From the IMG/VR virus record IMGVR_UViG_3300034520_000260, positions 1-24,560 of that record: a stretch of 24,560 bases of DNA, one strand, 5' to 3'. Position 1 is the stretch's first letter; every line of letters begins with the position of its first letter. The translations under genes and the position numbers were made by a program. The notes under the pieces were generated by a model, which searched no databases, was not told where the DNA came from, and saw nothing but the letters and a program-made list of their open reading frames with translations. This DNA comes from a virus. Below, piece by piece: positions 3,955 to 24,560 of the stretch.

Positions 3955-4719
3955 TTAGTCATGTTTGGGGGAGACTATGCCCCATCCCAGATGTTTAAGT
4001 CCATTTAAGCAACAAGGTTTCCCTAATGGTCTTCCCGTCTTTGTTGCAGATACGTAATCCCATATGACCCAATCTTTTAATTCAAAACCTTTGACATTTA
4101 GAAGGTAGTGGCCGTACCATTTCCCGTCGTTACACTTCACCCGAACATGTTCGATTTTCACCTCGTAGCCCATCTCCTCGAGGACCTTGCTGAAGAGTTG
4201 GCAGGCGTCAGTACAGTTTATCCCGCTTGTTGTCATTCTCATGACTGCAACATGATTAGGGACCTGATCATTATAGTAATATTTATACTTGCAGGTCTTT
4301 TTCACCTGTTCATAGAGGCTCGTTGCATCATGAAAAGTACCTATCTTTTCGATGACTTTAGTTGTCCAAGGCCCTTTTAAAGATGACTGAGGTTGAATGC
4401 TGATATAATTAGGGTCACGGCCATTACTCCTCACAAAATCCTTGTAGCGCCTTAACATATCCTTGAATGTTCCTAAAGAAACATGGTCACTTTTACCTTG
4501 TTCAAGGTATATTATATTGGGTTCACGACCTTCCTTTTTCACAAAATCCTCGTAGCGCCTTAACATATCCTTGAATGTTCCTAAAGAAACATGGTCACTT
4601 TTACCTTGTTCAAGGTATATTATATTGGGTTCACGACCTTCCTTTTTCACAAAATCCTCGTAGCGCCTTAGCATATTCCTAAACTTCTTTATCTCAATCT
4701 TACCATTTTTAAGAGGCAT
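3955..4719 (-). CDS. peiW: Pseudomurein endoisopeptidase (PeiW/PeiP family lysis enzyme)
   Basis: The 254-residue enzyme is predicted to cut the peptide cross-links of pseudomurein and so lyse the host. Residues 10-108 hold three pseudomurein-binding repeats (FKDMLRRYEDFVKKEGREPN type) that anchor it to the wall. The C-terminal half is a transglutaminase-like C71 peptidase with the expected triad Cys169 (GINCTDAC), His204 (WYGHYLL) and Asp221 (VIWDY). There is no signal peptide, so release through holin lesions fits (candidates at 22079-22607). The first two repeats are an exact 108-bp tandem duplication in DNA. Known relatives are the endopeptidases of Methanothermobacter virus psiM2 and its defective relative psiM100. 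It is the last gene of the late operon. The family is certain from the repeats and triad; the symbol is by analogy. Confidence 0.93.
   Translation of the reverse strand: MPLKNGKIEIKKFRNMLRRYEDFVKKEGREPNIIYLEQGKSDHVSLGTFKDMLRRYEDFVKKEGREPNIIYLEQGKSDHVSLGTFKDMLRRYKDFVRSNGRDPNYISIQPQSSLKGPWTTKVIEKIGTFHDATSLYEQVKKTCKYKYYYNDQVPNHVAVMRMTTSGINCTDACQLFSKVLEEMGYEVKIEHVRVKCNDGKWYGHYLLNVKGFELKDWVIWDYVSATKTGRPLGKPCCLNGLKHLGWGIVSPKHD
4444..4659. repeat. Two exact 108-bp tandem copies in peiW
   Basis: Bases 4444-4551 and 4552-4659 are identical, and a third, diverged unit follows. 108 bp is exactly 36 codons, so the reading frame is kept and one pseudomurein-binding repeat has been copied. Complete identity, silent positions included, points to a very recent duplication or gene conversion. 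Confidence 0.95.
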
Positions 4720-22101: not shown

Positions 22102-22252
22102 CGTTGTTGTTGTTTGGGTGTGGGCAGAGTAGGTTATAGAGTGTTATGATGATTGCGATGATGAGTGGTGCGTACTCAGTATAACCGAGGCTCTGGATTG
22201 CTTGTTGTAGTGGTTCGGGGTTTGTTGCTATGTATCCGAGGATTGGGGTTAT
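22079..22252 (-). CDS. Small membrane protein with no standard start codon
   Basis: An open frame follows the stop of the upstream gene in the overlapping arrangement ATAA (ATA at 22252). It reads ITPILGYIATNPEPLQQAIQ, SLGYTEYAPLIIAIIITLYN, LLCPHPNNNNDDDETQN and ends 23 nt inside the next gene. It has one clear membrane segment and an acidic Asn/Asp tail, and the sequence looks like a real protein. The frame contains no ATG, GTG or TTG at all. It would need a rare ATA start, re-initiation or frameshifting from the upstream gene, or has lost its start. It lies in a cassette of holin-like genes, so a holin or antiholin role is plausible. The listed start is the ATA. Confidence 0.4.
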   Translation of the reverse strand: MTPILGYIATNPEPLQQAIQSLGYTEYAPLIIAIIITLYNLLCPHPNNNNDDDETQN

Positions 22253-22473
22253 ATTGTGCGTATGAGTGTGATGATTATGGGGATGATCAGGGCTGTTAGG
22301 AGTATCATGGTGATTTTATGGTAGGCTTTGAGTGTTGCTATTTCTGCTTGGAGGTCTATTAGCATTTTATTGGTCTCCTTGATGTCGATGATGTCGTATT
22401 CAATGTTTTTCAGTCTTTCCTCGAGGCTTGTTATCCTCTCTTTTTGTATGCATCCATGTCCCTCTTTTGTCAT
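22249..22473 (-). CDS. XhlA-like protein: coiled coil and C-terminal membrane helix
   Basis: The protein has 74 residues from the ATG at 22473, which overlaps the TGA of the upstream gene as ATGA. The pattern is a short polar start (TKEGHGCIQKERIT), a coiled coil (SLEERLKNIEYDIIDIKETN, KMLIDLQAEIATLKAYHK) and a final membrane helix (MILLTALIIPIIITLI). This matches haemolysin XhlA-type proteins, which work with holins at lysis. An earlier in-frame ATG 48 bases upstream would add basic residues but overlaps the upstream gene, so the coupled start is preferred. Cys8 might attach lipid or pair with a partner, but this is not established. Confidence 0.65.
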   Translation of the reverse strand: MTKEGHGCIQKERITSLEERLKNIEYDIIDIKETNKMLIDLQAEIATLKAYHKITMILLTALIIPIIITLIRTI

Positions 22474-22607
22474 GTTGTTTCTCCTGGGCGGGCTATGTAT
22501 CCTGCGATGGCCCCGATACATGCAGAGCCTAATTCGTATTGTTTGAAGTATAAGGATATCATCCCCAATATTATCAGGCCTGTGAGTCCTAGTGCTTCAC
22601 GATCCAA
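22470..22607 (-). CDS. Holin-like small membrane protein
   Basis: The protein has 45 residues and starts at a TTG (22607) with a strong GAGGTGA ribosome binding site about 6 nt upstream. The sequence is mostly membrane: LGLTGLIILGMISLYF, a short KQYE loop, then LGSACIGAIAGYIAR with a small-residue face that could support hairpin packing. It ends PGETT and is coupled by ATGA to the XhlA-like gene. Two closely spaced helices in such a short protein resemble small phage holins. If so, it would form the membrane lesion through which the PeiW-type enzyme reaches the wall. The start choice is strong because of the ribosome binding site. Confidence 0.65.
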   Translation of the reverse strand: MDREALGLTGLIILGMISLYFKQYELGSACIGAIAGYIARPGETT

Positions 22608-22697
22608 TTTTTGTCACCTCAGTTCTCTCCTCATAATATGTATGTAACGTAGTCGGAACATCAACAGAGTTATTAGAGAATACTGCAAAACTGGTGG

Positions 22698-22916
22698 TTA
22701 AAGTAGGAGGCCCCAGGGTAAGTCCAATTTCACTCCACCAACATAACAACAAACACTTGACAGGACCAAACCACATGACCTGCAGCAAATATTATACTCA
22801 GAATCCAGCTCAAAATGGATACCTTCACATTCAGGGCATTTCTCCTCCTCACTCAAAAACAAATTATAATTATCATATACTTTGACCTGGAATATCCTGT
22901 AATCCTGCAAATTCAT
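22698..22916 (-). CDS. TFIIB-type zinc ribbon protein
   Basis: The 72-residue protein has a start overlapping the stop of the upstream cyclin-like gene (ATGA). Residues 27-52 match the zinc ribbon of archaeal TFB: Cys27-Pro-Glu-Cys30, an acidic middle (HFELDSEYNI), then Cys45-x2-Cys48 in CCRSCGLVL. In TFB this ribbon contacts RNA polymerase through the dock domain. No B-reader or linker follows. The last 20 residues (SVCCYVGGVKLDLPWGLLL) look unrelated and overlap another coding-like frame, so the true protein may have been shortened by recombination. Together with the upstream gene it makes a TFIIB in two pieces and in reverse order. A role in viral late transcription is inferred. Confidence 0.7.
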   Translation of the reverse strand: MNLQDYRIFQVKVYDNYNLFLSEEEKCPECEGIHFELDSEYNICCRSCGLVLSSVCCYVGGVKLDLPWGLLL

Positions 22917-23284
22917 CCCCTCACAACAGGGGATCTGCTACGATAATATCTGAGGAGATTCCTGAGGACAGTAGTGTACAATTTATAGTTAACATTGTAT
23001 TCCTTAAGGATAGTGTACCTGTCTATCCTTAGGGGATGGCCCGTTGATTCCTCCTTGATGAATACTGCAAGGGCCAATAAGACCTGTTCCATTGATGCGC
23101 GCTTATGTAATTGTTTGATCCCCACCCTCCGTGTTATGTAGAGTATTCTTTGTATGTCAGTCCTGTTGAGGTTGAGGTCTGCAGATATTGTCTCCAGGAA
23201 GAAGTAGTGTTGAGTATGTCTCCATTCACCATTAGAAGAATTATGCATATCATATCTTCGGTTTAAGGATTCACTTACTCCCAT
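22913..23284 (-). CDS. TFIIB/cyclin-like core domain protein
   Basis: The protein has 123 residues from the ATG at 23284; a TTG two codons earlier is less likely. From about residue 25 it resembles one cyclin repeat of archaeal TFB: HYFFLETISADLNLNRTDIQ, RILYITRRVGIKQLHKRAS, MEQVLLALAVFIKEESTG, and a final helix-turn-helix (DRYTILKEYNVNYKLYTTVL, RNLLRYYRSRSP). TFB has two such repeats, which bind TBP and the BRE element; only one is present here. A TATA-like TTTTTATAG at 23309-23317 lies some 27 nt before the start, so the mRNA is probably leaderless. It heads the late gene block. The best explanation is a viral transcription factor or a decoy of host TFB. Confidence 0.6.
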   Translation of the reverse strand: MGVSESLNRRYDMHNSSNGEWRHTQHYFFLETISADLNLNRTDIQRILYITRRVGIKQLHKRASMEQVLLALAVFIKEESTGHPLRIDRYTILKEYNVNYKLYTTVLRNLLRYYRSRSPVVRG

Positions 23285-23307
23285 ATACAAAAATAAAAAA
23301 GCATAGA

Positions 23308-23318
23308 CTATAAAAATT
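23308..23318 (-). promoter_or_regulatory. TATA box for the TFIIB-like cassette
   Basis: On the minus strand AATTTTTATAG lies about 27 nt upstream of the ATG at 23284. With the usual TATA-to-start distance, transcription would begin only a few bases before the ATG, giving a leaderless message. No ribosome binding site is seen, in agreement. This may be the lead promoter of the long late operon. Confidence 0.5.
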
Positions 23319-23347
23319 AGAGGTAGAATGAATTTTTATGGGGACTA

Positions 23348-23566
23348 TTAAATTAGATGTGATACTTGTTCCTCTGATATATATCTAAAGCTTTGAGGGG
23401 GCCTTATATTGTTTAAGGATAACTCCAGTGGAGGATCAAAAGGTTTTAACTCCTTGATGGGTATTGCATAACCTTTTTTAATACCGCGAAAATAATCAAA
23501 AAACTCCCCCTGCGTCAAACCGGATTCCTCGTGATAAAATTCCCATAGAGTCTGGGGGTACTCTCG
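23348..23566 (-). pseudogene. 5'-truncated ASCH/PUA-like domain gene remnant
   Basis: An open frame of 72 codons runs from the TGA at 23569 to a TAA at 23348. From TYPQ-type sequence on it reads LWEFYHEESGLTQGEFFDYF, RGIKKGYAIPIKELKPFD, PPLELSLNNIRPPQSFRYIS. This is the second half of an ASCH-domain (PUA-like, RNA-binding) protein; the G-Y-A-I and P-P-Q-S-F-R-Y motifs are typical. There is no start codon before a TTG at 23518, and the N-terminal half is missing. Its 5' end coincides with one copy of the 51-bp repeat (23552-23602), so the repeat region seems to have replaced or cut the gene. A short form from the TTG is possible but would lack most of the fold. Confidence 0.65.
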
Positions 23567-23602
23567 TCAATGTATGTACAAAGAGAAAAAGATGTATGTA
23601 CA
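23552..23602. repeat. 51-bp direct repeat, copy 1
   Basis: This 51-bp element is identical to 23677-23727. Each copy ends with two ATGTATGTACA sub-motifs spaced 22 bp apart, which is about two turns of DNA. It overlaps the 5' end of the ASCH remnant. It is part of the TGTACA regulatory block. Confidence 0.95.
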
Positions 23603-23727
23603 TCGGCGAAGGTATCCCTGGGGAGCTTTGTACAGTCGACTGTACATGCCCTGTACAGCTGTATGTACATGATGTGCTGGGGGTACTCTCGTCAATGTAT
23701 GTACAAAGAGAAAAAGATGTATGTACA
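23575..23727. promoter_or_regulatory. Cluster of eight TGTACA sites (operator or iteron block)
   Basis: TGTACA, itself a palindrome, occurs at 23575, 23597, 23629, 23641, 23652, 23664, 23700 and 23722 (first base), eight times in 153 bp. Two of them build a perfect 18-bp palindrome, TGTACAGTCGACTGTACA (23629-23646). Several share the longer form ATGTATGTACA. The block separates the early regulators from the TFIIB-like cassette and late genes. Repressor binding by an RHH dimer, or iterons for replication initiation, are the main options. No gene of normal composition uses this DNA. Confidence 0.85.
23677..23727. repeat. 51-bp direct repeat, copy 2
   Basis: Second identical 51-bp copy, 125 bp from the first. 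It lies 11 bp beyond the 3' end of the RHH/coiled-coil gene. Its outer TGTACA (23722-23727) falls between a TATA-like element (about 23735-23743, minus strand) and the expected transcription start near 23714. Confidence 0.95.
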
Positions 23728-23734
23728 AATAGAT

Positions 23735-23743
23735 AAATTTATA
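23735..23743 (-). promoter_or_regulatory. TATA-like element upstream of the TGTACA cluster
   Basis: The minus strand reads TTATAAATTTATC here, covering the stop codon of the upstream gene. Transcription would start near 23714 within 51-bp repeat copy 2, with a TGTACA box between TATA and start. This placement fits a repressible promoter that reads toward the ASCH remnant and TFIIB-like genes. Confidence 0.4.
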
Positions 23744-24203
23744 AGGAGACTCCCATATCTAAAAGTAACCTTAAAATCTCCTCTTCAGGAGCCCCATAGA
23801 TCCTACTAGCAATCTCTATCAGATCCTCACCACGATCATTAACAACCTCACTGGGGGAAACCATACCCTCTCTCTCCTCAAGTCTCTCCATAACAAACCT
23901 TGCAGCTTCCCTCACCTCCCTCATGGGTTCATCAACAGGCTCAGAAAACCTCTCTAACTCTCTTTTCAATCGATCCTCTTCCATATTCAATCTTTCCAAT
24001 TCTTTCTCTAATTCAATCTTCCTCTCAGATATCTCATCTAACTCTTCCCTGAGTGCTTTCAGATATAACTCTGGGATTATACCCTTATTCTTCCTGAGTA
24101 ACCTTGCAAAATATTCGATGGCATCAGCATAGGTGTACCTGCTTTTCTTAATAGTCTCCTTATCAACCCTTGAAACCCTGACATTTATTCGCGCGGTTTT
24201 CAT
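23739..24203 (-). CDS. RHH-type DNA-binding protein with long coiled coil
   Basis: The 154-residue protein starts by ATGA overlap with the upstream RHH gene. The N-terminus (MKTARINVRVSRVDKETIKK) has a beta strand followed by helices (YTYADAIEYFARLLRKN), consistent with a ribbon-helix-helix or related small DNA-binding domain. Residues 48-95 are a strongly heptad-patterned coiled coil (LREELDEISERKIELEKELE, RLNMEEDRLKRELERF). The C-terminal 55 residues are helical and acidic (REVREAARFVMERLEEREG, EDLIEIASRIYGAPEEEIL). The coiled coil would lengthen the dimer or form tetramers, allowing binding to spaced sites such as those directly downstream. The gene ends 11 bp before the 51-bp repeat and TGTACA cluster, which is the obvious candidate target. 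Confidence 0.7.
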   Translation of the reverse strand: MKTARINVRVSRVDKETIKKSRYTYADAIEYFARLLRKNKGIIPELYLKALREELDEISERKIELEKELERLNMEEDRLKRELERFSEPVDEPMREVREAARFVMERLEEREGMVSPSEVVNDRGEDLIEIASRIYGAPEEEILRLLLDMGVSL

Positions 24204-24484
24204 GGTGCTTCACTGTTTAAGACCCCTTTTAGCCTATTTTTCTCATGATATTCCCTTAATTTCTCCTTACTCTTCCTTTCATCCTCATCGTACTCTGACG
24301 CCATCCTTCTGAGGACTTCTCCCACAGGAATCTGTCGCATCAGTGAATAGATGCTCATTGTCTCCCTGAAGTAGTAGTTCATCTGGTTCATGAATAACTG
24401 CATGACCCTATCCAAGTCAACATCATTCTCCATGAAGAACTTGTATAGTTCATCGTCTACTCTTAAAGTCACTTTAACCTCCAA
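24200..24484 (-). CDS. Ribbon-helix-helix DNA-binding protein spanning the circle junction
   Basis: The protein has 94 residues from a TTG (24484) with a GGGGGG element 9 nt upstream. Residues 2-9 (EVKVTLRV) form the beta strand, followed by helix 1 (DDELYKFFMENDVDLDR) and helix 2 (VMQLFMNQMNYYFRETM), the RHH pattern. A charged helical tail (EYDEDERKSKEKLREYHEKN) follows. The first 17 codons are repeated at 1-51 because of the terminal identity. On the circle it follows the frame-disrupted small gene by 2 nt and is coupled by ATGA to the coiled-coil regulator. It is probably a transcription regulator of the early set. Confidence 0.8.
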   Translation of the reverse strand: MEVKVTLRVDDELYKFFMENDVDLDRVMQLFMNQMNYYFRETMSIYSLMRQIPVGEVLRRMASEYDEDERKSKEKLREYHEKNRLKGVLNSEAP

Positions 24485-24560
24485 GACTATTGGCCCCCCT
24501 CGTCATCTAATAATTTCTTTAGTGACATTATTGTAACAGCCACCAATGTCTCTGACTCCC
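24434..24560. repeat. Terminal direct repeat, copy 2 (circular closure)
   Basis: This is the second copy of the 127-base terminal identity, beginning inside the 5' part of the RHH gene at 24200-24484 and running through the end of the upstream small gene. On the circle it is the same DNA as bases 1-127, so genes touching 1-127 and 24434-24560 should be counted once. Confidence 0.95.

Follow-up and report, generated by a model that had tools for sequence, protein, structure and literature searches.

A tandem array of TGTACA boxes behind ORF4 of psiM100-like methanogen viruses: a putative operator whose boxes and neighbouring gene change jointly in one relative

Which protein reads the dense array of TGTACA boxes that follows the ORF4 gene in a methanogen virus, and to what use is it put? 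The window, i.e., the whole stretch of 24,560 nucleotides analysed here (IMG/VR record IMGVR_UViG_3300034520_000260), is by sequence match a close relative of psiM2 and psiM100, tailed viruses of the thermophilic methanogens Methanothermobacter that are among the few isolated methanogen viruses and that database records assign to Leisingerviridae, Psimunavirus; over 23552-24560, it is 99.9% identical to psiM100 and 99.4% identical to psiM2. Because the first and last 127 bases of the window are identical (1-127 is an exact direct terminal repeat of 24434-24560), it is probably a complete closed circle of 24,433 bp, the size of the repeat suggesting an assembler overlap. The minus strand carries most of the long reading frames, and an integrase is encoded; a minus-strand gene at 3955-4719 encodes a pseudomurein endoisopeptidase with three pseudomurein-binding repeats. 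In the sense of the genes, the order at the locus is ORF2, orfX, ORF3, ORF4, the array, a remnant of ORF5, an ORF6 homologue and a protein with a weak zinc-ribbon match (Table 1). The 77-amino-acid gene orfX, unannotated in psiM2 and psiM100, runs in the window on the minus strand from about 286 across the ends to 24484; its reading frame is open in psiM100, psiM2 and L027, and the window copy is frameshifted after about 30 residues, which may be real or a sequence error.

Table 1. Features of the array and its surroundings in the window
Feature	Position	Strand	Remark
Protein with a weak TFIIB-type zinc-ribbon match	22698-22916	-	Intact; adjoins the ORF6 homologue
ORF6 homologue	22913-23290	-	phrog_30657; intact
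ORF5 remnant, start lost	23348-23518	-	ASCH-type; ORF5 is the PADLOC candidate M11B in psiM2 and psiM100
Junction word CTGGGGGT	23552-23559		Array meets ORF5 remnant; 8-base overlap of the two psiM100 matches
Complete 125-bp repeat unit, six boxes	23552-23676		Period as in three psiM100 repeat_region features; first 51 bp recur at 23677
Partial second unit, 51 bp, two boxes	23677-23727		Identical to 23552-23602
Eight-box core	23575-23727		Found in 6/6 genomes
Core boxes TGTACA	23575, 23597; 23629, 23641, 23652, 23664; 23700, 23722		Pair; quartet; pair
18-bp palindrome TGTACAGTCGACTGTACA	23629-23646		Built from two quartet boxes; another perfect palindrome in L027
T5 tract between the first two boxes	23711-23715	-	T5 or T7 at the same place in 6/6 genomes
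TATA-like element TTATAAAT	23737-23744	-	Overlaps the ORF4 stop codon; sequence read
ORF4, 154 aa	23739-24203	-	Presumed RHH N-terminus, long coiled coil, small C-terminal helices; proposed array binder
ORF3, 94 aa	24200-24484	-	Same gene run; no residue difference among L027, psiM100 and the window

The initial annotation of this DNA described eight TGTACA motifs in 153 bp, a 22-bp spacing inside each of two 51-bp repeats and a perfect 18-bp palindrome, all of which are borne out. The two 51-bp repeats are indeed identical and start 125 bp apart, but they come from what is only a 1.4-copy slice of a 125-bp tandem unit, in which the spacings counted from ORF4 are 22, 36, 12, 11, 12 and 32, then repeating (sum 125). 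Chance does not produce such a cluster of boxes: the window contains 19 TGTACA words in total, compared with a mean of 5.32 and a maximum of 11 over the whole window in 100 dinucleotide-preserving shuffles, and no 153-bp stretch holds more than 3 boxes in 300 windows simulated with a first-order Markov model. The unit behind ORF4 is 100% identical over 189 bases to the psiM2/psiM100 repeat and has the same period of 125, and in the psiM100 GenBank record the repeat is already annotated, without function. The literature searched gives neither a regulator nor a function for the psiM2 and psiM100 repeats; the founding papers on these two viruses lay outside its reach and may discuss a role.

As the initial annotation had proposed, the array was sought at the matching position in related viral genomes. 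The sample comprises six genomes, namely the window, psiM100, psiM2 and three partial contigs, L027, L028 and L031, with loci from the same contig counted once (L025/L030/L034/L036, which are psiM2; L028/L032/L033/L037; L029/L031). In all six, the core of pair, quartet and pair lies directly 3' of ORF4, the first box starting at the 12th base past the ORF4 stop; absence from close relatives, which the initial annotation had named as grounds for rejecting the array, is thus not seen. The arrays contain 19 boxes in psiM100, 13 in L027 (8 switched and 5 of the old type), 9 in psiM2 and 8 each in L028, L031 and the window, the last being the smallest form found. Compared with psiM100, the old-type arrays differ at 0 of 180 box positions and 10 of 460 spacer positions, a difference that is not significant (P 0.07) and makes box conservation among them suggestive only; of the four stretches in this comparison, only L031 and the distal L027 unit contribute the ten spacer differences, with none in psiM2 and L028.

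Searches of plasmids, phage records and viral contigs reveal no further carriers. The psiM-type palindrome was found in five stretches, three of which carry the array. L025 was rejected as an additional genome given that its length and box positions are those of psiM2, and the palindrome in L026 was taken as a chance occurrence (its 7,709 bases contain only 2 TGTACA words, which fall in a reading frame of an apparent bacterial phage). The L027-type palindrome occurs in 10 stretches, one of which is L027, the other nine having 2 or 3 box-like words per 300 bp and no array; a 16-base pattern searched in genome contigs yields 18 stretches, all bacterial by title and likewise ascribed to chance. 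Among plasmids, there is no match to ORF4 or the array; among phage records, only psiM2 and psiM100 match, each under two accessions; viral contigs contain no ORF4 relatives beyond the same four contigs, and relatives of ORF2 and of the ORF6 homologue come from the same contigs only.

The clue to the reader of the array comes from L027 (IMGVR_UViG_3300010011_000018, a 7.9-kb contig), in which ORF4 and ORF3 show 94% and 99% identity, respectively, to the window (tblastn). The first 176 bases past ORF4 contain 25 differences from psiM100, 8 of them in boxes, and each of the eight core boxes has exactly one change, at position 5 in six boxes and at the mirror position 2 in two; one hit per box at a mirror position has P about 1e-7 under random placement of the 25 differences, for a pattern that was noticed before testing. 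The 10-bp box TGTACATACA becomes TGTATATACA at 5/5 sites, and the palindrome TGTACAGTCGACTGTACA becomes TGTATATACGTATATACA, which is still perfect through symmetrical changes. The density of changes is not clearly higher in the boxes (8/48) than in the rest of the array (17/128); the evidence lies in how the changes are arranged rather than in how many there are. Five old-type boxes persist in the distal L027 unit, with 3 spacer differences.

The ORF4 protein of L027 differs from that of psiM100 at 11 residues, including T3E, A4D, R5Q and N7S. The cluster at residues 3-7 has P 7e-5, or 0.008 for any five-residue window; the four codons 3, 4, 5 and 7 contain 8 nucleotide changes, each codon now specifying another residue, and positions 6, 8 and 10, which are hydrophobic, are conserved. 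The altered residues presumably lie in the DNA-facing strand of a ribbon-helix-helix (RHH) domain. Among the other differences, T24S, located where the second predicted helix begins, is unique to L027; R22K is not tied to the box type because it is also present in L032 (the same contig as L028), with old boxes; V131I is common to the window and L031; and M74I, D127N, I135M and L148S lie far from the strand. The initial annotation had named both ORF4 and ORF3 as RHH candidates for binding the array. ORF3 was rejected as the binder given that its residues are identical in L027 and psiM100, codon by codon, despite the changed boxes, so that only the ORF4 half of that suggestion stands. Because ORF4 changes with the boxes at residues 3, 4, 5 and 7 and ORF3 has no change, it is very probably ORF4, not ORF3, that binds the array, although the joint change is a single switch event in one contig and as such suggests, rather than establishes, that ORF4 reads the boxes as a switch. 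The description of the array as a putative binding array is well supported by its placement behind ORF4 in all six genomes and by this joint change.

Gene and sites appear to have travelled together because the differences between L027 and psiM100 (per 100 bases), absent from ORF3 (0.0), are frequent in the first half of ORF4 (10.2) and in the array (14.2), with 2.5 in the second half of ORF4, and drop to 3.0 in the distal unit; ORF2, farther away, also differs (4.8). The ORF4 gene and its sites thus seem to have been imported as a single stretch, with a crossover within the array.

The ORF4 protein itself has a single family match, phrog_33871, a virus family without known function, once weak hits that fall mostly on the coiled coil are set aside; no RHH family, solved structure or fold match was detected in Pfam, NCBIfam, PDB sequences or a Foldseek search of the PDB. 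An AlphaFold2 model from 4 sequences (mean pLDDT 72.7, pTM 0.39) has residues 1-13 under 50 with no strand modelled and predicts helices at 15-20, 25-38, 45-86, 95-110, 128-136 and 140-149. A strand followed by the helices 15-20 and 25-38 would fit the RHH plan, from which we infer this fold for ORF4. According to the part of a study that was available to us, the RHH sheet forms only in the dimer (PMC5569661), so the monomer model neither proves nor excludes the RHH fold. Elsewhere in the window, a small minus-strand protein at 638-823 gives a sub-threshold RHH_1 match (E 0.0034; 17.7 bits versus a cut-off of 20.5), in the region where psiM100 has ORFA and ORF1; ORFA (L005 4800-5267, L027 3546-4013) is uncharacterised in psiM100, and its L027 copy contains a SWIM zinc finger (E 3.3e-8).

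On its far side, the array leads into variable sequence. The initial annotation took 23552 as the left edge of a designed element, which does not hold: the edge is a junction within the 8-bp word CTGGGGGT. A BLAST comparison of the window with psiM100 aligns 22244-23559 with 11179-9867 (98.3%) and 23552-24560 with 6769-5761 (99.9%), and CTGGGGGT is found next to ORF5 sequence as well as within the repeat unit. This arrangement suggests a psiM100-like virus that lacks about 3.1 kb between two CTGGGGGT words, a segment holding the bulk of the array, the insert IFa and the ORF5 start; its absence would reflect a deletion in the line of the window. The ORF6 homologue and the protein with the weak zinc-ribbon match (22698-23290) are the first intact genes behind the window array; the TFIIB zinc-ribbon matches of the latter and of L028 8810-9022 (E 0.001 and 0.0038) are both below the cut-off.

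The sequence past the core differs in all six genomes, and the slot between the array and the ORF6 homologue contains exchangeable, often defence-like genes (L005 7090-10078, L006 2925-3308, L027 5789-6235, L028 6009-8376), where a defence candidate is a label of the PADLOC library and not a tested function. In psiM100, ORFD matches PDC-M11A (E 1.7e-119), ORF5 matches PDC-M11B (4.1e-44) and ORFB has a short DrmA match (3.5e-6); in psiM2, ORF5 adjoins the array and matches PDC-M11B (7.2e-39), and the annotation is without ORFD. The slot of L028 encodes a protein with weak PDC-M19A and DarG matches (1.6e-5 and 1.9e-5) along with two match-less neighbours; that of L027 encodes a small protein with one weak PtuB match (0.004) that reads like a PIN-type nuclease, without Pfam support. 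In L031, the ORF6 homologue lies within about 160 bases of the array.

The initial annotation also placed a box between a TATA-like element and a start. The element is present on the minus strand (23744-23737), but the transcription start is only predicted: the usual archaeal promoter geometry presumably puts it near 23714, between the boxes at 23722 and 23700. No purine-rich recognition element precedes TTATAAAT. The T5/T7 tract could be a terminator or a start region, and scans for bacterial-type promoters and terminators, which do not cover archaeal promoters, yield no more than in shuffles. Because the 10-bp box TGTACATACA is confined to the array in the available sequence of the six genomes, ORF4 seems to have one target; a regulator of many targets is not indicated, and the suggestion that the array is the main genetic switch of the virus is not borne out.

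Taken together, these features can be read as a multi-site operator for the virus's own ORF4; the ORF4 gene stops 11 bases short of the first box. ORF4 would bind as RHH dimers, the strand pair reading each box in the major groove, and adjacent dimers, spaced 11-12 bp within the quartet and 22 bp within the flanking pairs, would cooperate into one complex of about 153 bp. Bound ORF4 would then cover the TATA-like promoter overlapping its own stop codon and thereby dampen transcription running into the variable slot and the genes that follow. For this reading as a whole, that is, a cooperative ORF4 operator array repressing a promoter at the ORF4 end and the slot behind, we consider the chances about even. 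It is favoured because of the TATA-like element, the precedent of RHH repressors in archaeal viruses and the missing partner genes for some of the rivals; the position of the array downstream of the gene of its presumed binder, which is less usual for an autoregulator, counts against it. The joint change would be explained equally well by a replication origin, a partition site or an immunity determinant.

The array as a replication origin, with ORF4 as an initiator that binds the iterons and brings in the host replication machinery, appears unlikely. The boxes form a direct tandem array next to the gene for their binder, and an unknown initiator would be needed given that searches of the window, psiM2 and psiM100 for a Rep_3 initiator and an MCM helicase found each in 0/3. 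The GC-skew check that had been proposed for an origin points both ways: in all three of these complete genomes, the maximum of the detrended cumulative skew lies at the array edge, 11 bases short of the ORF4 stop, and it stays at the array edge when the 1,000 bases preceding the array are excluded, but the swing is within block permutation (P 0.06, 0.14 and 0.37), and the three genomes share the skew block almost letter for letter and are not independent. Moreover, the genes preceding the array are rich in G (0.11-0.19 in each 500-bp bin of the final 1.5 kb), and the array lacks a marked AT-rich stretch (about 45-60% A+T per 60 bases, 75% only at the ORF4 end). Distinctly unlikely, in our estimate, is that ORF4 on the array marks the genome for partition at segregation, or that ORF4 of a resident virus shuts down an incoming virus with the same boxes. 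Incompatibility or immunity selects for just such a shift in specificity between otherwise near-identical viruses, the ORF4 gene and its sites exchange as one block, and an RHH or helix-turn-helix domain plus a coiled coil acting on tandem boxes is known from plasmid partition proteins. Against partition, a ParA-type ATPase (PF13614) was detected in 0/3 genomes (window, psiM2, psiM100) by a search that recovered 14/14 controls; the ParM-type search (PF06406) also gave 0/3, yet detected no control either and is uninformative. Somewhat less doubtful, if still tentative, is the idea that ORF4 and the array constitute an immunity or incompatibility cassette with two natural specificities, the strand and every core box differing in step.

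The array might also not be an ORF4 site at all but a repeat-driven recombination hotspot or a packaging site, in which case the altered boxes of L027 would merely have come along with an imported, diverged stretch. The variable copy number of boxes (8 to 19), the different sequence beyond the array in all six genomes, the left edge of the window's own array being a junction and the similar density of L027 changes in boxes and spacers all fit this explanation. Random divergence, however, would not hit every box once at a mirror position with the palindrome kept perfect, and the cluster in the ORF4 strand would be left unexplained, so that we regard it as quite improbable, although the array may be a hotspot in addition to being an ORF4 site. 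The helix phasing of the boxes, which was also computed, carries no weight.

Compared with known systems, the psiM100 (AF301375) 125-bp repeats and the matching stretch of psiM2 (AF065411) are the same repeat in the same place behind ORF4 as in the window, with a different copy number and different sequence beyond, and the array of L027 has other boxes. Short-box arrays beside the gene of a binder are characteristic of plasmid centromeres and iteron origins (ParR/parC, omega/parS, sopC, Rep iterons), an arrangement that the psiM-type array resembles with its short boxes beside the gene of the proposed binder; unlike these systems, the window, psiM2 and psiM100 lack a ParA-type ATPase and a Rep_3 protein. 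In lambdoid heteroimmunity, near-identical viruses have different repressor and operator specificities, and the stoperators of mycobacteriophages are operator sites that could stop transcription running through; the ORF4 array could resemble them in both respects but, in contrast to the scattered sites of these phages, is one clustered target. Cooperative RHH repressors acting near promoters are known in archaeal viruses, namely SvtR, AvtR and F55, of which F55 binds tandem repeats (PMC5569661, in the part available). As far as that part goes, the likeness to ORF4 consists in the presumed fold, short repeated sites and cooperative binding near a promoter, the latter presumed for ORF4; ORF4 differs in adding a long coiled coil and C-terminal helices, in having at least eight boxes in one place and sites behind its own gene, and in showing no sequence match. 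In phage P22 Arc, the strand residues Gln9, Asn11 and Arg13 contact bases (PMC12645479, likewise seen in part) and would correspond, by eye, to the presumed ORF4 strand positions 5, 7 and 9, two of which differ in L027; there is no detectable sequence or fold match between ORF4 and Arc, and their sites differ.

Given that the 125-bp repeat itself was already known, the new point is the pairing of boxes and ORF4 strand in L027. This natural experiment singles out ORF4 as the probable binder and points to the residues that perhaps set its specificity (3-7) and to the bases that are perhaps read. If the immunity cassette is real, it would parallel lambdoid heteroimmunity in archaeal viruses: exchanged as a block through a crossover within the array, it would sit ahead of a slot of exchangeable defence-like genes. 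If, instead, the operator reading is true, the array would show how a methanogen virus controls a slot with defence-like genes.
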